A stretch of 64,000 bases of DNA, from the NCBI GenBank assembly GCA_026391795.1, contig JAPLDI010000045.1, positions 1 through 64,000 on the forward strand, read 5' to 3'. Every line of letters begins with the position of its first letter. Position 1 is the first letter of the stretch. Below the pieces are notes generated by a model that was given only the letters and a program-made list of their open reading frames with translations, did not search any database and had not been told where the DNA came from. The position numbers and the translations under genes are program-made. The stretch comes from Bacteroidota bacterium. Its GTDB lineage: Bacteria; Bacteroidota; Bacteroidia; Bacteroidales; FEN-979. This document shows positions 5,880 through 17,625 of the stretch, piece by piece.

Positions 5880-5910
5880 TTTGCGGATTGGGTCGTCTTT
5901 TGTAATTTTG
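5880..5910 (+). promoter_or_regulatory. Bacteroidota promoter of the isocitrate dehydrogenase operon
   Basis: TTTG at 5880-5883, 19 nt, then TAATTTTG at 5903-5910: an exact match to the housekeeping sigma consensus of Bacteroidota. Transcription should start about 7 nt downstream, leaving a leader of roughly 35-40 nt before the ATG at 5955. Confidence 0.75.
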
Positions 5911-5954: not shown

Positions 5955-7148
5955 ATGACAAAAAGGACAATCGTAGCGATGCCCGGAGACGGCATCGGAA
6001 AAAATGTACTGAAAGAATCGGTCAGGGTATTGGATGCAGTTGGTTTTGAAGCAAATTATGTACATGGTGATATCGGATGGGAATTCTGGTGCAAGGAAGG
6101 AAACCCGCTGCCCGACAGGACACTCAGGCTGCTGGAAGAACATAAAACTGGACTTTTCGGAGCCATCACCTCCAAACCCAAAGATAAAGCAGAAGCTGAA
6201 CTGGCTCCTGAGCTGAAGGACAAGGGCTATGTTTATTACAGTCCGATCGTTGCCATGCGGCAGAAGTACGACCTCGATATCTGCATGCGTCCCTGCAAGA
6301 CATTCAAGGGAAATCCCCTGAATTTCATCCGCCGCGGCCCTGGAAATACCATTGAGGAGCCGGAAATCGATACTATGATCTTCCGTCAGAATACCGAAGG
6401 CTTGTATGGAGGTGTTGAATGGACAAATCCTCCCGACCAGGTGTATGAGGCACTTATGACACACAAGAAATTCAAGGAAAATTTTGCCTGGTGCCCTCGT
6501 CCTGAACTGGCTGTTTCCACGCGTATCCTCACAAAAAAATACACCACACGGATAATAAAGGCAGCGTTTGAGTATGCCAAAACAAAAGGGTTCAACTACG
6601 TCACTGTTTGCGAAAAACCCAACGTGATCAGGGAAACCTCAGGCATGATGCTGAAAATCGCACAGGAGATGTCGAAAAATGAGTTTCCAGGTATAAAGGT
6701 CCAGGATACGAACATCGATGCACAGATGATGTGGCTAACCAAAAATCCTGAAACCTACAACGTAGTCGTTGCCAGCAATATGTTCGGGGATATTATTTCC
6801 GATGGTTTTGCAGGACTGGTCGGCGGACTGGGATTTGCCTGCAGCGCCAACATCGGCCCTGAAGTGGCAGTCTTTGAACCCACCCATGGATCTGCGCCAA
6901 AATATGCCGGATTCAACCCGTCGATCGTCAACCCGGTTGCCATGATCCTTTCCGCATGCATGATGCTTGAACACCTCGGCGAGAATGAAAAGGCAAAAAG
7001 GATCTATGACGCCGTTGCATCGGTTGTACTGGAAGGAAAAGTCAGGACCTACGACATGATGAAGCTTTCGGGAAACCCGGATGTATTCAGCAAAGGCGCT
7101 GCAACAACAGAACAGATGACCGATGCGATCATCGCGAAACTAAAGTAG
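5955..7148 (+). CDS. Isocitrate dehydrogenase (isocitrate/isopropylmalate dehydrogenase family)
   Basis: 397-residue beta-decarboxylating dehydrogenase. It opens with VAMPGDGIGKNVL, has the RQNTEGLYGGVEW substrate loop, the CEKPNVIRETSG segment holding the catalytic lysine region, the metal-binding NMFGDIISDGFAGLVGG, and the HGSAPKYAG cofactor loop. The expected reaction is isocitrate to 2-oxoglutarate plus CO2 with NAD(P)+. The fused aconitase 760 bp downstream supports isocitrate rather than isopropylmalate as substrate, and there are no leu genes nearby. Cofactor choice cannot be stated with certainty. The ATG at 5955 lies behind an exact promoter. A 44-bp gap with an octamer repeat (AGCTCATC) separates it from the next gene. 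Confidence 0.87.
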   Translation: MTKRTIVAMPGDGIGKNVLKESVRVLDAVGFEANYVHGDIGWEFWCKEGNPLPDRTLRLLEEHKTGLFGAITSKPKDKAEAELAPELKDKGYVYYSPIVAMRQKYDLDICMRPCKTFKGNPLNFIRRGPGNTIEEPEIDTMIFRQNTEGLYGGVEWTNPPDQVYEALMTHKKFKENFAWCPRPELAVSTRILTKKYTTRIIKAAFEYAKTKGFNYVTVCEKPNVIRETSGMMLKIAQEMSKNEFPGIKVQDTNIDAQMMWLTKNPETYNVVVASNMFGDIISDGFAGLVGGLGFACSANIGPEVAVFEPTHGSAPKYAGFNPSIVNPVAMILSACMMLEHLGENEKAKRIYDAVASVVLEGKVRTYDMMKLSGNPDVFSKGAATTEQMTDAIIAKLK

Positions 7149-7907: not shown

Positions 7908-9713
7908 ATGAATCTTATCGAAAAGATAATTGCAGCCCATTCCAGCCAGCCGATGGTAAAGCCGGGAGACATCGTGGATGTGATGATTGACACCCGCGCT
8001 GCCAGGGATTTTGGAGGGGCAAACGTAGTGAAAAACCTCCTGGATAACGGATTGACTGTTGATGATCCCTCGAAAACCATATTTACCTTCGACTGCAACC
8101 CGGGCGGATCGGATCAGAAGTATGCTCAAAACCAGCATTACTGCAGGCAATATGCACGTGAGAACAACATCCGTATTTATGATGTCGATTCGGGGATCGG
8201 GACGCACCTGGCCATTGACACCGGCCTTTCATGGCCCGGAAGCACCTTTGTTTCCACCGACTCTCACGCCAACATCATGGGGGCCATCGGTTCGTTCGGA
8301 CAGGGAATGGGCGACCAGGATATTGCAGCAGCATGGGCAAAGGGTTACGTGTGGTTCAAGGTTCCTGCCTCTGTCAGGATCAACCTGAATGGAAAGAAAC
8401 CTTCAGACGTTTCGGCCAAAGATATCGTGCTTAACCTTCTCTCTGTCTTCGGCGCGAACAAGATGCTGGGATATTCGGTGGAGATCTATGGTGAGGAAGC
8501 CGATAAACTCAGTTTGTCGGAGCGGGTCACCATCTCTTCCATGGCCACGGAGATGGGAGCGATCATCCTGCTTTTCTCCCCCTCCCCTTCAGTGCTAAAT
8601 GAGCTGAAAATGAAGACCGGTAAAACTTTTGACGCCATTTCTGCAGATCCTGACGCAGTTTATGAGAAGAGCTTCGACCTTGACATCAGCAAGTTTGTTC
8701 CGATGGTTGCTAAGCCCGGCCATCCCCATGATGATATTGCTGTTCAGGAAGTCATGAACATCAAGATCGATTCAGGTTTTATCGGAAGCTGCACAAATGG
8801 GCGGATTGAAGATCTCAGGATTGCAGCAGCCATCCTGGATGGGAAAAAAGTTGCTCCCGGGGTTGTCCTGAAGATCGTACCTGCAACAGATGCCATCTGG
8901 ACTCAGGCTATGAATGAGGGACTTATCAAAATATTCAAGAATGCAGGCGCCATGGTTTCCAATGCAGGTTGTGCAGGGTGCGCAGCCGGTCAGGTCGGAC
9001 AAAACGGTCCCGGTGAAGTGACCATCAGCACGGGAAACAGGAACTTTGAAGGGAAACAGGGCAAAGGATTTGTTTACCTTGCGTCACCCGCAATCGTAGC
9101 CGCATCAGCTGTTGCAGGGTGCATTACCACACCGGACAAGATACCCGGAACACCGGCTTTATTTGCCGTTACGCGTCACGCGTCACGCGTTACGCGTCAC
9201 GATGAAAAGGTAAAGGCTGAGAAACCAACGGTCGTTGAAGGCATGGTATGGATCATTCCCAAAGACGACATCGACACCGATATGATCTTTCACAACCGTT
9301 ACCTGACGATCACCGATATCAAAGAGATGGGCCAGTATACCTTTGATAACCTGAAAGGATTCGAGGATTTTCCAAAGAAAGCCAAGTCAGGTGATATTGT
9401 GATTACGAATAAAAATTTCGGTGCAGGAAGTTCACGGCAGCAAGCCGTTGACTGCTTTCTCTCGCTGGGCATCAGCTGTATCCTGGCCGAATCCTATGGC
9501 GCCATTTACGAACGCAATGCCATCAATGCAGCGCTGCCGATCCTCACCTATGATCCGGCGCAACTTGAAAATGCAGGGATAAAAAACGGGAACCGTATCC
9601 GGGTGGATTTTATTACGGGTGAACTGATCAACCTGGACAACGGAAAAACATGTTCCGTCAACAGGTTTTACGACGCTCAGCTGGCGATCTACAGGAACGG
9701 AGGGTTGTTGTAA
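7908..9713 (+). CDS. Single-chain aconitase / isopropylmalate-isomerase-type hydratase with in-frame heptamer insertion
   Basis: 601 residues joining the large and small subunit types of the LeuC/LeuD-like aconitase branch. The large part has three cluster ligands: a cysteine in GSCTNGR near residue 294 and two in GCAGCAAGQ near 354 and 357, which would hold a [4Fe-4S] cluster. The swivel part begins near residue 440 with VWIIPKDDIDTDMIF and contains the GAGSSRQQAVDC substrate loop. The expected reaction is citrate to isocitrate, supported by the isocitrate dehydrogenase upstream; isopropylmalate or homoaconitate chemistry is possible for this branch. The linker holds VTRHASRVTRH (residues about 421-431), encoded by a 7-bp DNA repeat unlike the rest of the gene. 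Confidence 0.87.
   Translation: MNLIEKIIAAHSSQPMVKPGDIVDVMIDTRAARDFGGANVVKNLLDNGLTVDDPSKTIFTFDCNPGGSDQKYAQNQHYCRQYARENNIRIYDVDSGIGTHLAIDTGLSWPGSTFVSTDSHANIMGAIGSFGQGMGDQDIAAAWAKGYVWFKVPASVRINLNGKKPSDVSAKDIVLNLLSVFGANKMLGYSVEIYGEEADKLSLSERVTISSMATEMGAIILLFSPSPSVLNELKMKTGKTFDAISADPDAVYEKSFDLDISKFVPMVAKPGHPHDDIAVQEVMNIKIDSGFIGSCTNGRIEDLRIAAAILDGKKVAPGVVLKIVPATDAIWTQAMNEGLIKIFKNAGAMVSNAGCAGCAAGQVGQNGPGEVTISTGNRNFEGKQGKGFVYLASPAIVAASAVAGCITTPDKIPGTPALFAVTRHASRVTRHDEKVKAEKPTVVEGMVWIIPKDDIDTDMIFHNRYLTITDIKEMGQYTFDNLKGFEDFPKKAKSGDIVITNKNFGAGSSRQQAVDCFLSLGISCILAESYGAIYERNAINAALPILTYDPAQLENAGIKNGNRIRVDFITGELINLDNGKTCSVNRFYDAQLAIYRNGGLL
9171..9201. repeat. Heptamer array (ACGCGTC) inside the aconitase coding sequence
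   Basis: Units begin at 9171, 9178, 9185 (ACGCGTT) and 9192, followed by ACG. The array encodes an arginine/histidine-rich piece of the interdomain linker and leaves the frame open. It is the only array of this class found within a gene here. Confidence 0.9.
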
Positions 9714-9721
9714 AATAAGCT

Positions 9722-9780
9722 GATGCTGGATGCTCGATGCTGGATGCTCGATGCTGGATGCTCGATGCTGGATGCTGGAT
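9722..9780. repeat. Heptamer array alternating GATGCTG / GATGCTC, 8 units
   Basis: Eight consecutive 7-bp units; the first seven alternate between the two forms to give a 14-bp higher-order period, and the last two are both GATGCTG. The array starts 8 bp after the aconitase stop. The same heptamer reappears at 56611-56731. Confidence 0.92.
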
Positions 9781-9796
9781 AGTTGTTACTGGGTAT

Positions 9797-9817
9797 CTCA
9801 CCTCTCACCTCTCACCT
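9797..9817. repeat. Heptamer array (CTCACCT), 3 perfect units, containing a stop codon
   Basis: Units at 9797, 9804 and 9811. The minus-strand TGA stop of the acyltransferase gene (9814-9812) lies inside the third unit. Confidence 0.9.
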
Positions 9818-10678
9818 TTTCAGCTTCCATCTCCTGTGCGACCAGAGATAATATTCCGGATTTTCGCGGATGATCTTTTCCAGCGTATTCATATAAATAC
9901 GTGTAATATCACCGGGTGCGGTTTTGGAAGGGTCTTCCACCAGCATAAAAAACCTCACCTTATAAAATCCGCGTTTTATTTTTCGGGGATAAGCAAAGAC
10001 TACCGGCATATTGTGAAGCCGGGCATATTTTTCAGGACCATGCAAAACAGCGGTGTCCTGGTTCATGAATGGCATCCAGTAGGCCAGTCTTGCGCTGGAA
10101 GGACTCTGGTCAGCAACCATGTAGAAGATGGCAGGTTCGCCATAATCCTTTTGAAACACAGCCGTTGTGTTGGTGATTGAAGCCAGCAACGACCTTCCCC
10201 GGACCCTTGTTTTCTGGATAAATGCATCCACTCCTTTATTGGAAAGTGGTTTATAGAATCCGACGGGCCTGTGTTTTAACTGTGTACCGGAAGCAATACC
10301 TGCCCATTCCCAATTGTTATAATGCCCGCCGACACAAATAACCGACTTACCCTCCCGGCACAATTCATCGAGAAACGCAGTGTTTTCGTATTCATACCTT
10401 CTGACAACCTCTTCTTCCTTCATGGAAAAAGCTTTCATGCTTTCAACAATGAGATCGCAAAAATGATGGTAAAACCCGGAAGCAATCGACCGGATCTCCT
10501 TCTCAGATTTAACCGGAAAAGAATTGCGCAGGTTTTCGAATACCACCGTTTTCCGGTAACCAACAACCTTATATGCCAGTAAATAAATCAGATCGGAAAA
10601 TAAATACAGTGCTCCGAAGGGAACGATCCTGAAAAGAAAAACCAGGGATCTCATTAAAACAAGGGTGGCGAGTTTCAT
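9812..10678 (-). CDS. LpxL/HtrB-type lipid A acyltransferase family protein
   Basis: 288-residue membrane-associated acyltransferase. An N-terminal hydrophobic segment (residues about 5-40) precedes the conserved core. GGHYNNWEW carries the H-x4-E catalytic pair (near residues 119 and 124), VADQSPSS matches the second conserved block, and the C-terminus ends in YYLWSHRRWK as in the family. Expected role: transfer of a secondary fatty acyl chain to a lipid A precursor at the inner membrane; an ornithine-lipid or other acceptor is possible. It stands alone, convergent to the aconitase gene and divergent from lplA. Its stop codon is provided by a CTCACCT heptamer array. Confidence 0.88.
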   Translation of the reverse strand: MKLATLVLMRSLVFLFRIVPFGALYLFSDLIYLLAYKVVGYRKTVVFENLRNSFPVKSEKEIRSIASGFYHHFCDLIVESMKAFSMKEEEVVRRYEYENTAFLDELCREGKSVICVGGHYNNWEWAGIASGTQLKHRPVGFYKPLSNKGVDAFIQKTRVRGRSLLASITNTTAVFQKDYGEPAIFYMVADQSPSSARLAYWMPFMNQDTAVLHGPEKYARLHNMPVVFAYPRKIKRGFYKVRFFMLVEDPSKTAPGDITRIYMNTLEKIIRENPEYYLWSHRRWKLKR

Positions 10679-10728: not shown

Positions 10729-11712
10729 ATGCTGATCATCCGCAGACACAATACAGATCCTTATTTCAACCTTGCTACCGAAGAATATGTATTGAAGGAG
10801 ATCAGGGATGACTCGTTTATGCTCTGGCGAAACGAACCTTCCATCATTGTCGGAAAACACCAGAATACCCTGGCAGAGATCAACCTGGATTACGTGCGGG
10901 AGAATAAAATCAAGGTAGTGCGGCGGTTATCAGGGGGAGGTGCCGTATTTCACGATCTGGGGAACCTGAACTTCACCTTTACCATGCAGGGAGAAGGGAA
11001 TAACCTGATCGATTTCAGGAAATATACGGAACCGATCCTGGAAGTACTGGTAAAACTCGGGATCGATGCCCGTTTCGAAGGCAGGAATGACCTGACCATT
11101 GACGGGAAGAAGTTTTCAGGAAATGCGATGCATATCTGGAAAAACAAGGTTCTGTCGCACGGCACACTCCTGTTCTCCTCCCACATGCCCGACCTGAGCG
11201 GCGCCCTGAATGCCGATCCTCTGAAATTCAAAGATAAAGCCGTTAAATCGGTACGAAGCAGGGTTACCAACATCAGCGAACACCTGACCGAACCCATGGA
11301 TGTAATGGAATTCTCAACCCTCATCGAGAATCATATCATGGAAAAATACCCTGATGCCACGCTGTATGAACTCTCGGAAAAAGATCATGAACGGATCCGG
11401 GAGATGGTAGCATCCAAATACGAAACCTGGGAATGGAATTTCGGGTATTCGCCCCAGTACAATTTCAAAAAGGTTTTACGTACGCAGAACAGCGGAACCC
11501 TTGAATTCAATATCGATGTTGCCGACGGCATCATCCGGGATATCCGGATTTTCGGAGATTACTTCAATTCATGCGATACCGAAGAGATCGAAAATATTCT
11601 GAAGGATCTTCCTCACAATGAAAAAAAGATCAGGGAAGCCCTGGCACCCTGCAACATCGGCGATTATTTCAGCAATCTGACGCTTGATGAGTTTATGAAT
11701 GGGATGTTTTGA
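10729..11712 (+). CDS. lplA: Lipoate-protein ligase A
   Basis: 327 residues of the LplA/LipB/BPL superfamily. It activates free lipoate with ATP and attaches it to a lysine of lipoyl domains (2-oxoacid dehydrogenases, GcvH). Diagnostic pieces are NLATEEYVL, the RRLSGGGAVFHDLGNLNFTF nucleotide/lipoate loop, and the accessory C-terminal domain after about residue 240 (YNFKKVLRTQNSG). Full length compared with bacterial LplA with its small C-terminal domain. Its substrate proteins are not in the window; a glycine cleavage or 2-oxoglutarate dehydrogenase partner would fit the TCA genes to the left. Confidence 0.93.
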   Translation: MLIIRRHNTDPYFNLATEEYVLKEIRDDSFMLWRNEPSIIVGKHQNTLAEINLDYVRENKIKVVRRLSGGGAVFHDLGNLNFTFTMQGEGNNLIDFRKYTEPILEVLVKLGIDARFEGRNDLTIDGKKFSGNAMHIWKNKVLSHGTLLFSSHMPDLSGALNADPLKFKDKAVKSVRSRVTNISEHLTEPMDVMEFSTLIENHIMEKYPDATLYELSEKDHERIREMVASKYETWEWNFGYSPQYNFKKVLRTQNSGTLEFNIDVADGIIRDIRIFGDYFNSCDTEEIENILKDLPHNEKKIREALAPCNIGDYFSNLTLDEFMNGMF

Positions 11713-11899: not shown

Positions 11900-12706
11900 A
11901 TGACCCACCAGGAAATCTTCGAGCGGCTTTGGCAGGATTACATCACGCAAAATCCTGCAACAAAAAAAGTTTATGACCTGCTGGTCAGGGAGGGAGAAAC
12001 CATTGTCAACGACCATGTTGCTTTCCGCACCTTCAATCATCCGCTGACCGGTATTGATGCGATTGCAAAAATCTTTTTGAAGAACGGATACGTTTACAAG
12101 GGTGATTATCATTTCGAACAAAAGAAGCTGTATGCCCGGCATTATGAACACAAGTCAGACCCGCAGGCACCGAGGGTATTTATCAGTGAACTCCTTGTTG
12201 AACATTTCAGTGAGCATATGAAAGCTACAGTGAACCAGTGGGTAGCCAGCATTCCGTTGAATCTGATCAAATCTGACGAATTGATTTTTGCCGGGAATGT
12301 CATCGGGATCCCGTCGTACAAGACGTATGAAAAACTCAGGATCGAATCAGAGTATGCTGCATGGCTCTATGTCAACGGGTTTTGTGCGAACCACTTTACG
12401 GTCAGCGTCAATTCACTGAGGGAATATGACACGGTTGAGAAGGTCAATACATTTCTGAAAGCCAATGGATTCCTCCTCAACGATGCGAACGGGGAGATCC
12501 AGGGAACTGCCAATGATATGCTGGAGCAATCGAGTATCAAAGCCGGGATCAACCGCATCACTTTCCAGGAGGGCGAATTTGATATCCCCGGATGTTATTA
12601 TGAGTTTGCGCTAAGGTACCCTGAACCGAACGGAAAGCTCTACAGCGGATTTGTCGCCAAATCGGCAGATAAAATTTTTGAATCGACGAATTATTATAAA
12701 AAATGA
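11900..12706 (+). CDS. DUF1338 / HglS-like 2-oxoadipate dioxygenase-decarboxylase family protein
   Basis: 268-residue VOC-type metalloenzyme of the DUF1338 family. In Pseudomonas putida the family member HglS converts 2-oxoadipate to D-2-hydroxyglutarate in an Fe(II)-dependent reaction. Candidate metal ligands follow the family pattern: His39 in NDHVAFRTF, His165 in ANHFTV and Glu235 in YYEFA. FRTF and the SGFVAKSADKIFEST end are also typical. This is the short form; HglS itself is longer. It overlaps the next gene by 4 bp (ATGA), and a D-2-hydroxyglutarate-dehydrogenase-like gene is third in the same operon, so substrate and product fit a 2-oxoadipate (lysine-derived) route. The substrate assignment is inference. 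Confidence 0.85.
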   Translation: MTHQEIFERLWQDYITQNPATKKVYDLLVREGETIVNDHVAFRTFNHPLTGIDAIAKIFLKNGYVYKGDYHFEQKKLYARHYEHKSDPQAPRVFISELLVEHFSEHMKATVNQWVASIPLNLIKSDELIFAGNVIGIPSYKTYEKLRIESEYAAWLYVNGFCANHFTVSVNSLREYDTVEKVNTFLKANGFLLNDANGEIQGTANDMLEQSSIKAGINRITFQEGEFDIPGCYYEFALRYPEPNGKLYSGFVAKSADKIFESTNYYKK

Positions 12707-13947
12707 GAGGTTTCCTCTATTCTGTCCTGTGGATCGTTTTGCTGATCAACCTCCCCGGATGCGGCCCCGGGAATAACAGGACAAATGGCAACTCCGTTTC
12801 TGCCGCCACGGTAGTGAAAGGCAAAATCATCCCGAATGTCACCTGCCGGAAATTCTATAGCGTCAGTTACGCACTTTTTCTTCCGGAGAGCTATACTACA
12901 ACCCGGAAATTCCCGGTGATCATCGCTTTTGACCCGCAGGGGAGCGGGATTCTTCCGCTGGAAAAGTACAAGGATCTTGCAAACAAGTACGGCTACATCC
13001 TCATGGGGTCGAACGATTCGAAGAACGGACAGGATATGAACACTTCCGGATTCATCATTGATGCCTTATTCAGTGAAACTTCCGGCAGGTATGCCATCGA
13101 TTCGACGCGGATCTATGTGATGGGATTTTCGGGCGGGGCACGAATAGCATCCATGATCGGGTTTTACCAGGGAGATGTTACCGGCGTGATCGGTTGCGGT
13201 GCCGGATTTCCTTCTGTCAGCCAGCCCATGCGTTTCAGACCCGACTACATCTCGTTCGCAGGAAATGCTGACTTTAACATGAACGAACTGATTAACCTCG
13301 ATAAACAACTTGACCAGGCAAACTATACCCATGCATCCATCCTGTTTAACGGGAAGCATGCGTGGCCGCCGGCTGAGATCATGGAAAATGCATTTTTCTG
13401 GACTGAATTCTGTGCGATGCGGAAAGGCCTCATCCCAAAGAATGATTCGATGATTCATACCTTTATCCGGCTGCAGGAAAAAATCCTTCAGAAAGATAAA
13501 GAAGCCGGAGATGAACTTTCACGGCAGCACCATCTTGTGAACCTGATCCGGTTTGTGGATGGATTGTATTTTACGGATGATTTCAGGAATGCCCTTGCAG
13601 ATGTTGAAAAATCTTCTTCCTACAAAGCCCAGGAAGAACAAAGGAAGAACCTGATGGCAAAGGAGATGGATGAACAACAACAGCTGAACGAAAATTTCTT
13701 CGTAAAGGACTCTGACTGGTGGAAAAGGAAGATCGGGAGTTACAACGGTCGGATCACTGCGGGAAAGGATTCTTCCGATGTGAGGATGTGCAAGAGGCTA
13801 AAGAGTTACCTGAGTCTTATTTCCTACATGAACTATTCCCGCAGTTTATCCTCAAAGGATTCTGTTGCTGCCCGGCATGCCATGATCATATACCAGATCG
13901 TCGACCCGGAAAATGCAACCCTTACCAGGGGAGATAAAGGAAAATAG
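12703..13947 (+). CDS. Lipoprotein with alpha/beta-hydrolase (esterase-like) domain
   Basis: 414 residues. A signal peptide ends in the lipobox LPGC (cysteine near residue 20), so the mature protein is probably lipid-anchored in the cell envelope. Residues about 45-230 look like a PHB-depolymerase/dienelactone-hydrolase-type alpha/beta hydrolase: FPVIIAFDPQGSG, an oxyanion-region strand, and the nucleophile elbow GFSGGARIASM with serine near residue 143. HAWPP (residue about 222) may hold the catalytic histidine. The C-terminal 170 residues are helical, charged and unrecognised. It starts in an ATGA overlap with the DUF1338 gene and ends directly before the next ATG, so the three genes are one transcription unit. 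The substrate is unknown. Confidence 0.75.
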   Translation: MRGFLYSVLWIVLLINLPGCGPGNNRTNGNSVSAATVVKGKIIPNVTCRKFYSVSYALFLPESYTTTRKFPVIIAFDPQGSGILPLEKYKDLANKYGYILMGSNDSKNGQDMNTSGFIIDALFSETSGRYAIDSTRIYVMGFSGGARIASMIGFYQGDVTGVIGCGAGFPSVSQPMRFRPDYISFAGNADFNMNELINLDKQLDQANYTHASILFNGKHAWPPAEIMENAFFWTEFCAMRKGLIPKNDSMIHTFIRLQEKILQKDKEAGDELSRQHHLVNLIRFVDGLYFTDDFRNALADVEKSSSYKAQEEQRKNLMAKEMDEQQQLNENFFVKDSDWWKRKIGSYNGRITAGKDSSDVRMCKRLKSYLSLISYMNYSRSLSSKDSVAARHAMIIYQIVDPENATLTRGDKGK

Positions 13948-16881
13948 ATGGACATCAACAAAAACCGTGAGATTTCTGAAGCACTTCGTTCTGCCTTTCG
14001 CGGTGAACTTTTTACCGACCTGCTTTGGACGACGATGTATGCGACCGATGCATCTGCCTACCGTGAAATGCCCCTGGGTGTTGCACGTCCATGTCATGCC
14101 GAAGATATCCGAACGCTTCTGGCCCTTGCAAGGAAACATTCGTTTCCCCTGATCCCCAGAACGGCAGGCACTTCTCTTGCCGGCCAGGTCGTCGGAAACG
14201 GATTAGTAGTCGATGTTTCGAAGTACATGACGGAGATCCTTGAGATCAACATAGAGGAACATTGGGTTCGGGTGCAACCCGGCGTTATTCTTGATGAACT
14301 GAATAAAAAAATTGAGCCATACGGATTATTTTTCGGACCGGAGACTTCCACCTCCAGCCGTTGCATGATCGGCGGAATGGTTGGAAACAACTCCTGCGGA
14401 GCACATTCCATCCTTTACGGGAGTACACGCGATCATGTGATCTCCATGAAGACCCTCCTTGCAGATGGTTCTGAAGTTGAATTCACCGATCTGACCCCTG
14501 GAGAGGTAAAGGAAAAAATGCAGGGTGACAGTCTGGAAAGTACGATCTACCGTACCTTTTACGAAATACTGTCTGACCCTTTCAACCAGTCGGAGATCCG
14601 GAAAGAGTTTCCCAAACCTTCCATCCACCGAAGAAATACGGGCTATGCCCTTGACCTGCTGCTTGAAACCAATCCGTTTACCGGAAACGGAATTCCTTTT
14701 AATTTTTCAAAAGTACTGGCCGGATCGGAAGGGACGCTTGCATTTACCACGGAGATCAAACTCAACCTGGTTTCCTTGCCGCCAAAGCAGAAAGCGCTGA
14801 TCTGCGTTCATTGCAACTCTGTACAGGAAGCACTGGAAGGCAACCTGGTCGCCCTGAAATACAACCCCGGAGCTGTGGAACTGATGGATAAAGCCATCAT
14901 GGATTGCACCCGCGACAACATCACCCAGCGGCAGAACCGTTTTTTTATTGAAGGAGATCCTGCTGCCATCCTGATCATTGAGTTTGCCCGTGAATCGAAA
15001 GAGGAGATCCTGGTTATCGCCCGGGAGCTGGAACGCGAAATGCGGGCCGCCGGTTATGGAACCCATTTTCCCCTCATCTTTCCCCCCGACCTGAAAAAAG
15101 TCTGGGATCTCAGGAAGGCGGGACTGGGAGTTCTCTCCAATTACCCCGGCGACCGGAAGCCCGTTCCTGTGACAGAAGATACGGCAGTGAGCCCGGAGGA
15201 CCTTCCCGGCTATATCCGGGAATTCCGCCATATGCTTGAAAACCTTCACCTGGAATGCGTCTATTATGCGCATATTGGTTCAGGCGAACTGCACCTGCGA
15301 CCGGTGCTGAACCTGAAAGATCCGGCAGATGTTGACCTGTTCCACACCGTTGCCCTGGAGACGGCAAAACTGGTAAAGAGATACCGGGGATCGCTGAGCG
15401 GGGAACATGGTGATGGCCGGCTTCGGGGGGAATTCATTCCGCTGATGATCGGTCGGCATAATTACAGCCTGTTAAAGAAAGTAAAGCTGGCGTTTGATCC
15501 TCAGGGGATCCTGAATCCAGGCAAGATCACGGATACCCCGAAGATGAACTCCGGTCTTCGGTTCGACCCGGGCCAGGAAGCTAATAAAATATCTACCGTT
15601 TTTGACTTCTCCTCCAGCCATGGCATCCTGCGTGCCGCCGAGCAATGCAACGGTTCGGGTGATTGCAGGAATACTTTTCTTACCGGTGAAGGGATGTGTC
15701 CCTCCTACCAGGCCCTCAAAGATGAGAACACCACGACACGGGCCAGGGCAAACATCTTGCGGGAATTCCTGACAAGGTCTGTTAAAGAAAACCCTTTCGA
15801 TCACAGGGAAATTTACGATGTGATGGACCTGTGCCTTTCCTGCAAGGCCTGTAAGTCTGAATGCCCTTCGAATGTGGATATTGCGAAGCTGAAGGCTGAA
15901 TTTCTGCAGCACTATTATCAATCAAACGGAATTCCCCTGCGGTCTTGGTTGATTGCCAATATTACCTCCATTAACCGCCTGGGCAGTTTACTTCCCGGAG
16001 TTTTCAATTTCGCTCTGCGATCTCCCTTTCTCTCCCAAAGCATCAAAAAGATCCTGGGATTTGCACCTGAAAGGAAGATACCGTTATTGTATAAAATCAC
16101 CTTGAAATCCTGGATTAGAAAGCATCCGCAGATCATTAAGGAAAAAAAAGGAAAAGTCTTTCTTTTCGCTGATGAATTCACCAATTACAATGATGTTGAG
16201 ATCGGGATCAAGGCAATCTGTTTGCTGAATGCCCTCGGCTACGAAGTTGAGATTCCCCGCCACCTGGAAAGCGGGCGGACCTTTATCTCGAAGGGAATGG
16301 TGAGGAAAGCAAAAATCATTGCCAATAAAAACATCTCGCTGCTGAAGAATCGTATCACAGCATCAACCCCTTTGATCGGCATCGAACCTTCCGCAATCCT
16401 GACCTTCCGTGATGAGTACCCTGAACTAGCAACGGAATCGTTGATTGAAAGTGCACACCGGATCGCAGAAAACACGTTCCTTTTTGATGAATTTATCATG
16501 AAGGAGTTTGACCGGGGCCTGATCAGGGCATCCGCCTTTACGCTGGAGGAACGAACCATAAAACTCCATGGGCATTGTCATCAAAAAGCCCTCGCATCCA
16601 TCGAACCGACAAGAAGAATGCTGTCCATTCCCGGGAAATTCAGGGTTGAGCTGATCCGTTCCGGTTGTTGCGGCATGGCGGGAGCGTTCGGATATGAGAA
16701 GGAACATTATGAGGTTTCGATGAAAGTGGGTGAAATTTCATTACTCCCGGAAGTAAGGAGAGCTGGAGAGGAAGTCATTCTTGCTGCCCCCGGAACCAGC
16801 TGCAGGAACCAGATCCTTGACGGAACCGGCAGAAAAGCGTTCCACCCGGTTGAGATCCTGCACGACGCACTGTTAATCTGA
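13948..16881 (+). CDS. FAD/Fe-S oxidoreductase of the GlcD-YdiJ type, probable D-2-hydroxyacid (D-2-hydroxyglutarate) dehydrogenase
   Basis: 977 residues. The FAD-binding PCMH domain lies at about 40-250 (RTAGTSLAGQVVGNG; TSTSSRCMIGGMVGNNSC) and the FAD oxidase C-terminal domain at about 265-530 (LSGEHGDGRLRG). A ferredoxin-type region follows at about 565-650 (CLSCKACKSECPSNVD near 630). The C-terminal CCG domain includes HCHQKAL and SGCCGMAGAFGYE. This one-chain architecture matches YdiJ, an E. coli D-2-hydroxyglutarate dehydrogenase, and D-lactate dehydrogenases of the Dld-II type. The DUF1338 gene two positions upstream favours D-2-hydroxyglutarate oxidised to 2-oxoglutarate, with electrons passed towards quinone. 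The ATG directly abuts the preceding TAG. Confidence 0.85.
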   Translation: MDINKNREISEALRSAFRGELFTDLLWTTMYATDASAYREMPLGVARPCHAEDIRTLLALARKHSFPLIPRTAGTSLAGQVVGNGLVVDVSKYMTEILEINIEEHWVRVQPGVILDELNKKIEPYGLFFGPETSTSSRCMIGGMVGNNSCGAHSILYGSTRDHVISMKTLLADGSEVEFTDLTPGEVKEKMQGDSLESTIYRTFYEILSDPFNQSEIRKEFPKPSIHRRNTGYALDLLLETNPFTGNGIPFNFSKVLAGSEGTLAFTTEIKLNLVSLPPKQKALICVHCNSVQEALEGNLVALKYNPGAVELMDKAIMDCTRDNITQRQNRFFIEGDPAAILIIEFARESKEEILVIARELEREMRAAGYGTHFPLIFPPDLKKVWDLRKAGLGVLSNYPGDRKPVPVTEDTAVSPEDLPGYIREFRHMLENLHLECVYYAHIGSGELHLRPVLNLKDPADVDLFHTVALETAKLVKRYRGSLSGEHGDGRLRGEFIPLMIGRHNYSLLKKVKLAFDPQGILNPGKITDTPKMNSGLRFDPGQEANKISTVFDFSSSHGILRAAEQCNGSGDCRNTFLTGEGMCPSYQALKDENTTTRARANILREFLTRSVKENPFDHREIYDVMDLCLSCKACKSECPSNVDIAKLKAEFLQHYYQSNGIPLRSWLIANITSINRLGSLLPGVFNFALRSPFLSQSIKKILGFAPERKIPLLYKITLKSWIRKHPQIIKEKKGKVFLFADEFTNYNDVEIGIKAICLLNALGYEVEIPRHLESGRTFISKGMVRKAKIIANKNISLLKNRITASTPLIGIEPSAILTFRDEYPELATESLIESAHRIAENTFLFDEFIMKEFDRGLIRASAFTLEERTIKLHGHCHQKALASIEPTRRMLSIPGKFRVELIRSGCCGMAGAFGYEKEHYEVSMKVGEISLLPEVRRAGEEVILAAPGTSCRNQILDGTGRKAFHPVEILHDALLI

Positions 16882-17139: not shown

Positions 17140-17625
17140 ATGAAGAAAATCGCCATTCTCGGAATTTGCTTGCTTATGATTGCTTCAGTTGCCTGCAAGA
17201 AGAAAACGGAAGATCCTGCACCTGTACCTTACGCCTATTTCAAAGTAGACGGAGTAGCAAAGAGCTACACGGTTTATTCGAAATTCACGAAAGATTTATG
17301 TTCAACCTCCACATTCTGCTGCCGTTTCTCTTCCAATAACACTGAGACTGCTGCCCAGATGAAATTCGGCATCCCCGGTGATCCGGTGGTGGGTCTCGTT
17401 TACAAAACCGGCGATTACCGGTTCTCCTGTTTTTATTTTGACGATGCCCAGGTACGTTATGATTTTGCCACTGCGCCTTTTTCCGTTGTATTCACCCAAT
17501 GGGATGGCCAGGGAGGCTGGGCCAGAGGGAACTTCTCCGGATGGCTAAAATCACCCACCAACGATTCCATTCATATCACCGATGGATATTTCCAGAACAT
17601 GATCTGGACAATGGGGACAAAATAG
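17140..17625 (+). CDS. Small putative lipoprotein, unknown function
   Basis: 161 residues. The signal peptide MKKIAILGICLLMIASVAC ends at a lipobox-like SVAC, so the mature protein would start at a lipidated cysteine followed by KKKTEDPAP, a typical charged tether. The rest is beta-rich with many aromatic residues (CFYFDDAQVRYDF) and no motif I recognise. It is a single gene with weakly promoter-like TATCTTTTG about 80 bp upstream (near 17058). The downstream neighbour is convergent. Confidence 0.7.
   Translation: MKKIAILGICLLMIASVACKKKTEDPAPVPYAYFKVDGVAKSYTVYSKFTKDLCSTSTFCCRFSSNNTETAAQMKFGIPGDPVVGLVYKTGDYRFSCFYFDDAQVRYDFATAPFSVVFTQWDGQGGWARGNFSGWLKSPTNDSIHITDGYFQNMIWTMGTK

Follow-up and report, generated by a model that had tools for sequence, protein, structure and literature searches.

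A predicted HglS and YdiJ-like gene pair for the last steps of lysine breakdown in a Bacteroidales genome

During lysine catabolism in Pseudomonas putida, D-2-hydroxyglutarate is oxidised by a D-2-hydroxyglutarate dehydrogenase. The DUF1338 protein HglS, as well as FLO7, AT1G07040 and YdcJ, is reported to convert 2-oxoadipate to 2-hydroxyglutarate, and HglS is described as active on 2-oxoadipate alone among seven 2-oxoacids (PMC7286885). According to the same source, an arginine binds the distal carboxylate (Arg74 in HglS, Arg64 in FLO7), and this residue, together with the HHE set, is held to predict 2-oxoadipate activity in DUF1338 proteins. YdiJ of Escherichia coli is described as a verified D-2-hydroxyglutarate dehydrogenase, linked to the D-2-hydroxyglutarate made by SerA (PMC9504171). 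Here, a stretch of 64,000 nucleotides (the window) from an uncultured Bacteroidota bacterium of the Bacteroidales (GTDB FEN-979; assembly GCA_026391795.1, contig JAPLDI010000045.1, positions 1 to 64,000 of the forward strand) was analysed, in which an hglS-like gene, a lipoprotein hydrolase gene and a YdiJ-like dehydrogenase gene follow one another. The hglS/YdiJ pair probably carries out the final two reactions of a lysine breakdown that resembles the plant pathway and ends in 2-oxoglutarate.

The metal triad, the substrate arginine and, as predicted here, the reaction are common to P. putida HglS (PMC7286885) and the window protein, which differs in being of the short FLO7/3LHO type, with 268 aa. 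Plant lysine catabolism, with lysine-ketoglutarate reductase (LKR)/saccharopine dehydrogenase (SDH), aminoadipate semialdehyde (AASA) dehydrogenase (AASADH) and FLO7/AT1G07040, shares LKR, SDH and a FLO7-like HglS with the window's genome, whereas in the latter LKR and SDH are separate and a YdiJ-type enzyme is predicted to take up D-2-hydroxyglutarate. The predicted fate of this compound is like that in P. putida, although the window has a long YdiJ-type dehydrogenase with an iron–sulfur part, and saccharopine enzymes are encoded in the genome. With E. coli YdiJ, the dehydrogenase has in common the FAD, FAD-oxidase C-terminal and iron–sulfur parts and the metal and carboxylate residues, including Arg451. 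The chemistry is thus already known from Pseudomonas, E. coli and plants, and it is the setting in Bacteroidales that is new; searches of the openly licensed literature turned up no description of how these organisms degrade lysine beyond 2-oxoadipate. The locus places the HglS step beside the enzyme that likely consumes its product in many Bacteroidales and Flavobacteriales, tied to saccharopine-pathway genes. It offers a path, open to testing, by which carbon from lysine could enter the tricarboxylic acid (TCA) cycle, and suggests a function for the YdiJ-type enzymes of Bacteroidota.

The HglS-type protein and the YdiJ-like dehydrogenase

Three open reading frames (ORFs) of 268, 414 and 977 aa were confirmed on the + strand (Table 1). 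The hglS-like gene overlaps the hydrolase gene by four bases (ATGA), and the YdiJ-like gene starts at the base right after the hydrolase stop codon. The coordinates and junctions match those of an earlier note on this DNA, which had described three overlapping or abutting genes. For the conserved residues described below, homologues of at least 230 aa (115 HglS), 900 aa (61 YdiJ) and 380 aa (23 hydrolases) were counted, and alignments were made of 19 of 37 HglS, 12 of 16 hydrolases and 12 YdiJ sequences (11 from the loci and that of E. coli).

The product of the first gene matches PF07063 (HGLS) with 107.2 bits, the Pfam cut-off being 25. By phmmer, its nearest solved relatives are rice FLO7 (6W1K, E 3.5e-32) and 3LHO (E 2e-77), a Shewanella structure annotated as ‘putative hydrolase’. 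The AlphaFold2 (AF2) model has a mean predicted local distance difference test score (pLDDT) of 90.4, and Foldseek aligned it to 6w1k_A with a TM-score by query of 0.91 at 2.1 Å, and to P. putida HglS (6W1G/6W1H) with 0.55-0.58. By homology and predicted fold, the window HglS belongs to the short type represented by plant FLO7. The predicted metal ligands His39, His165 and Glu235, placed by FLO7 alignment and conservation, and the predicted substrate arginine Arg43 are invariant in 19/19 aligned sequences and in all 115 homologues. Arg43 stands four residues after the first histidine, as in the His70/Arg74 pair of HglS. The protein is predicted to be an O2/Fe(II)-dependent enzyme that converts 2-oxoadipate to D-2-hydroxyglutarate.

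The third protein combines FAD_binding_4, FAD-oxidase_C and Fer4 domains in one chain (Pfam). Seven of its residues, namely Arg389, Lys404, His442, His449, Arg451, Glu486 and His487, are invariant across all 61 homologues and also occur in E. coli YdiJ. The metal and substrate residues of human D-2-hydroxyglutarate dehydrogenase (D-2-HGDH) are given as Arg386, His434, His441, Glu475 and His476, and those for the C5-carboxylate as Lys401 and Asn443 (PMC7801405). Motif matching, with the human sequence outside the alignment, pairs Arg389, His442, His449, Glu486 and His487 with the human metal and C1-carboxylate residues. Two positions after the second histidine, Arg451 occupies the place where Asn443 of human D-2-HGDH and Ile407 of mouse LDHD are described, and human Lys401 is without a sure counterpart, with Lys404 lying nearby. 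Judged from these motif positions, Arg451 supports a dicarboxylate substrate, and the protein is a predicted D-2-hydroxyglutarate dehydrogenase.

Lysine genes near HglS and in the window's own genome

The neighbourhoods of HglS were compared in 115 loci, made up of 36 from one genome set and 79 from named genomes; 80 named loci were fetched, and in one of them (L193) the gene caller gave no HglS ORF. The set includes the same contigs fetched twice (e.g. L052 and L121), and many contigs end inside the requested stretch, so that statements on missing neighbours are lower bounds. Of these loci, 69 have a YdiJ gene in the vicinity of HglS: in 57 it is downstream on the same strand, and in 12 it is upstream and on the other strand. 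When the loci were thinned by HglS identity, the count was 55/92 (<80%) and 21/46 (<65%). With 1-2 YdiJ genes among several thousand, chance would place one in such a stretch in an estimated ~1% of loci at most; the observed arrangement does not arise by chance. Thus, the survey of DUF1338 neighbours that the earlier note had proposed finds the pair far beyond this one genome, against the condition that the note had set for refuting its idea.

The 12 opposite-strand loci are Flavobacteriales by title and usually have a gene of ~150-170 aa between the two, which in L174 is of the AsnC/Lrp type. In Flavobacteriales loci of the kind seen at L174:4464-8789, YdiJ and the Lrp/AsnC regulator gene run divergently from hglS, and the signal of this regulator may be lysine or one of its breakdown products.

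Lysine genes are also found next to HglS. The aldehyde dehydrogenase (ALDH) closest to L-piperidine-6-carboxylate (P6C) dehydrogenase adjoins HglS in 8/79 named and 4/36 other loci. Nine of these 12 enzymes were scanned, and all nine exceed the curated L-piperidine-6-carboxylate dehydrogenase cut-off (L075, L080, L082, L155, L170, L173, L187, L188 and L192). Saccharopine-dehydrogenase domains are encoded no more than two genes from HglS in L082, L170, L183, L187, L188 and L192. At L187 (Cyclobacteriaceae), genes for an LKR-like protein, SDH, HglS and P6C dehydrogenase stand together, and in Aliidiomarina a protein that passes the NCBIfam cut-off for YdiJ (1434 bits vs 1350) is encoded three genes from HglS.

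Two further arrangements were observed. A Neisseriaceae metagenome-assembled genome (L198:6482-12786) has a P6C-dehydrogenase-like gene, HglS, SerC and YdiJ in a row, thereby joining two D-2-hydroxyglutarate sources (2-oxoadipate and the serine pathway) with the likely dehydrogenase. On a plasmid of Deinococcus radiophilus (L203:3794-7562; one of two Deinococcus plasmid records was examined), a DAO-family oxidase, DUF1338 and an aldehyde dehydrogenase stand in a row; the last scores 357.6, below the P6C dehydrogenase cut-off of 730. This row resembles the Pseudomonas pipecolate route (amaA/amaB).

The window's genome has one HglS gene and, at E 1e-100, one YdiJ. Its LKR (E 3e-71 to human AASS) and SDH (E 2.7e-81) are separate genes in tandem elsewhere in the genome, and the two parts of human AASS are thus matched by split genes. 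Following them, within L103:7518-12432, are genes for a TerB/DnaJ-domain protein and an Oxidored_FMN (Old-Yellow-Enzyme-type) protein; by eye, genes of similar size with alike N-termini follow LKR/SDH in L104 and L105. There are four ALDH-family matches in the genome, one of which is a 1-pyrroline-5-carboxylate (P5C) dehydrogenase (TIGR01236, 774.5 bits, cut-off 613.6), the best candidate, going by family assignment, to stand in at the aldehyde step. In two relatives (G313, G351), the P6C dehydrogenase gene adjoins a gene for a protein of 542-543 aa, which in G351 is an aldehyde dehydrogenase; by eye, both proteins begin like the P5C dehydrogenase of the window's genome. Cytochrome bd is also encoded, which agrees with the use of O2.

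Among 61 relatives, LKR of the strong type is present in 31/32 with HglS and in 8/29 without (P 9e-9), a link that is inflated by relatedness and dependent on scoring. Partial matches at contig ends (G312, G320, G324, G330) were counted as present, while absence was scored for G340 (73 residues) and for six genomes whose LKR matches are distant ones (33-37% identity, E 1e-56 to 1e-60); G319 and G331 were taken as HglS-positive on partial HglS matches.

Proposed route and competing explanations

It is proposed that the LKR and SDH encoded elsewhere in the genome would take lysine by way of saccharopine toward 2-oxoadipate, the path being completed by an aminotransferase and an aldehyde dehydrogenase, with P5C dehydrogenase as the leading candidate for the latter. 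The HglS-type enzyme would then decarboxylate and hydroxylate 2-oxoadipate with Fe(II) and O2, and the YdiJ-like enzyme would oxidise the resulting D-2-hydroxyglutarate to 2-oxoglutarate, with the electrons probably passing to the respiratory chain. The substrates, direction and electron acceptor, as well as the aldehyde and transamination steps, are what we infer from the observed gene order, family membership, active-site conservation, lysine-gene neighbourhoods elsewhere and the genome's own LKR and SDH. The earlier note had proposed such a lysine or 2-oxoadipate module of HglS and a D-2-hydroxyglutarate dehydrogenase, which sequence and neighbourhoods support; its feed into the upstream TCA genes is not supported in the form given, and neither is its suggestion for the hydrolase.

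Several observations weigh against this route. The YdiJ-like protein shares 30% identity with E. coli YdiJ and reaches 637.8 bits with the YdiJ model NF049975, under the cut-off of 1350; it is therefore filed as YdiJ-like and not as YdiJ proper. YdiJ is missing from the stretch examined in 46 of the 115 HglS loci. A P6C/AASA dehydrogenase of the usual type (NF050084), as plants have in AASADH, was not found at E <= 1e-100 in the window's genome, which is 95.6% complete, and at E 1e-100 it is present in only 8 of the 61 relatives. When distant LKR matches are included, the counts among the relatives become 31/32 vs 14/29 (P 1.6e-5); in 24 genomes of other families they are 2/2 vs 8/22 (P 0.16), the strong type alone giving P 0.02. 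The 296 genomes sampled across the phylum contain HglS in 17, LKR in 78 (E 1e-30; 91 at the looser E 0.001), YdiJ in 126 (E 1e-100) and P6C dehydrogenase in 152 (E 1e-180). HglS goes together there with LKR in 8/17 (P 0.08), with YdiJ in 10/17 (P 0.21) and with P6C dehydrogenase in 13/17 (P 0.04), all of them weak associations. YdiJ is found in 116 of the 279 phylum genomes without HglS, and therefore has a job of its own too. A 51%-identical DUF1338 protein is, moreover, encoded in an arginine ast operon of Pseudoalteromonas donghaensis (NZ_CP032091.1, L202:2405-5783; of the 12 Pseudoalteromonas records, this one was examined), in the order astC-like, astA, astD, DUF1338 and type III pyridoxal-phosphate (PLP) decarboxylase. 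Because the phylum-wide co-occurrence is weak, contrary to expectation, the case rests on gene neighbourhoods.

The partner genes are common without HglS and can end in other routes; for YdiJ, this can be the removal of D-2-hydroxyglutarate made by SerA, which forms it from 2-oxoglutarate. The YdiJ-like enzyme might accordingly serve general D-2-hydroxyglutarate repair, sharing an operon with hglS for the sake of a common compound, with lysine not an important substrate. The many HglS-less genomes with YdiJ in the phylum speak for this, as does its presence in 36/37 genomes of the window's family, including 6/7 without an HglS match. The tie of E. coli YdiJ to the SerA product, as described, points the same way (PMC9504171), and so does the HglS, SerC and YdiJ row of the Neisseriaceae genome, though a P6C-dehydrogenase-like gene stands directly before it. 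We nevertheless regard general repair as rather unlikely, given the reported restriction of HglS to 2-oxoadipate among the seven 2-oxoacids (PMC7286885) and the fact that several lineages have HglS clustered with genes for P6C and saccharopine dehydrogenases. It is less probable again that the enzyme is a dehydrogenase of D-lactate or another D-2-hydroxyacid, placed near HglS for metabolic convenience. Among PDB sequences, its best matches, LctD, glycolate oxidase and D-lactate dehydrogenase, rank above D-2-hydroxyglutarate dehydrogenase, and the low score with the YdiJ model fits as well, yet the arginine at position 451, placed by motif, suits a second carboxylate in every homologue.

Other explanations concern HglS itself. 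The ast locus hints that HglS may serve lysine via succinylated intermediates, or another substrate. That HglS belongs to another basic amino-acid route, of arginine or ornithine or of succinylated lysine, would explain the position of DUF1338 behind astC-like, astA and astD in this one record, but we think it very improbable: BLAST of the Pseudoalteromonas AstA against the genes of the fetched HglS loci gave no match, AstD reached 26-29% identity there (to P6C-dehydrogenase-type genes) and AstC 28-33%, and the substrate arginine fits 2-oxoadipate. Scarcely credible is a supply of 2-oxoadipate by the upstream isocitrate dehydrogenase (IDH)-type and aconitase-like genes acting as homoisocitrate dehydrogenase and homoaconitase. 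Homoisocitrate dehydrogenase models (271 and 270 bits) do head the NCBIfam matches of the IDH-type protein, and the aconitase-like protein falls within the aconitase/isopropylmalate isomerase (IPM)/homoaconitase family; this source was set aside because the IDH scores fall far below the cut-offs (540 and 500). An opposite-strand gene, moreover, parts both genes from hglS, and LKR and SDH offer another source of 2-oxoadipate.

A bolder extension of the lysine route would give many Bacteroidales a full aerobic, plant-type lysine degradation with split LKR/SDH, a FLO7-like HglS and a YdiJ-type enzyme. P6C dehydrogenase would have been replaced in the window's family by the P5C dehydrogenase of the proline pathway, and the surface hydrolase would have been recruited to free an acylated or esterified lysine-derived precursor. 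Taken as a whole, this extension is speculative and unlikely to hold in all its parts.

The inserted hydrolase and the flanking genes

The hydrolase between the pair has a sub-threshold BD-FAE match (21.8, cut-off 26.8; Pfam). Its lipobox Cys20 and predicted triad Ser143-Asp190-His219 are invariant in 12/12 aligned sequences and 23/23 homologues, and its AF2 model (pLDDT 85.1) shows the alpha/beta-hydrolase fold together with an extra, helical C-terminal part. The 50 Foldseek matches listed are esterases, FrmB-type enzymes, lipases, feruloyl esterases and S9 peptidases at 10-19% identity. With feruloyl esterases and FrmB S-formylglutathione hydrolases (e.g. BT_4077, 7XRT; 7L0A), it has in common the fold, the serine nucleophile, the aspartate and the histidine; it differs in identity (12-16%; TM-score by query 0.38-0.40), in being a lipoprotein and in the helical part.

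The hydrolase is present in 8/48 named HglS-YdiJ loci and in 15 of the 36 other-set loci; each of these 15 belongs to the window's family, which contributes 18 loci. It was not found in L063, inside the family, nor in L067, L068 and L081, outside it. Within the family, it diverges faster than HglS (33-75% vs 60-83% identity to the window proteins). The translational coupling suggests common expression only, without an assignable role, and the release of a precursor outside the cell, which the earlier note had thought possible, finds no support, the hydrolase being missing from 40 of the 48 named loci.

Table 1. Features of the hglS locus and its surroundings, and the LKR and SDH genes (window positions, except for the last row)
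Feature	Position	Strand	Basis or remark
hglS-like gene (DUF1338/PF07063), predicted Fe(II)/O2-dependent 2-oxoadipate dioxygenase/decarboxylase	11900-12706	+	Pfam, phmmer, AF2/Foldseek, conserved residues
Lipoprotein alpha/beta serine hydrolase, 414 aa	12703-13947	+	Lipobox Cys20, predicted triad, AF2, Foldseek
YdiJ-like FAD/4Fe-4S D-2-hydroxyacid dehydrogenase, 977 aa, predicted D-2-hydroxyglutarate dehydrogenase	13948-16881	+	Pfam, NCBIfam, conserved residues
lplA, lipoate-protein ligase	10729-11712	+	TIGR00545 421.7 bits, cut-off 280
Gene taken as LpxL-type acyltransferase	9812-10678	opposite	From its sequence, without a family scan
Aconitase-like gene	7908-9713	+	Large and small domains fused; large part over NF001614 cut-off
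HD-domain gene	between aconitase-like and IDH-type genes	+	Same strand as hglS
IDH-type gene	5955-7148	+	Best models homoisocitrate dehydrogenases, all below cut-off
Gene for 161-aa protein	17140-17625	+	Next + strand gene downstream of YdiJ-like gene
RNase Z gene	beyond the 17140-17625 gene	opposite	
LKR and SDH genes	L103:7518-8831 and 9029-10366		G000:C37

The TCA-type genes upstream do not belong to the hglS transcription unit, because the opposite-strand gene intervenes, followed by lplA and a gap of 187 bases. Of the earlier claim that the module feeds these genes, the product 2-oxoglutarate is the sole link that stands, and one operon is not formed. A sigma-70 promoter scan of the window gave 6 matches (8.2 expected), nothing beyond chance. 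The terminator scan gave 14 sites (8.2 expected), 13 of which lie within genes; therefore, no unit borders were drawn from it. With a Bacteroidota-type promoter pattern, 4 matches were obtained in the window (1.3 expected), none in the lplA-hglS gap and one at 5880-5910, ahead of the IDH-type gene.

lplA lies within two genes of hglS in 20/79 named-genome loci and in 12/36 other loci, and is perhaps co-transcribed with hglS in relatives. It is often near hglS, and perhaps lipoylated 2-oxoacid dehydrogenases use the product.

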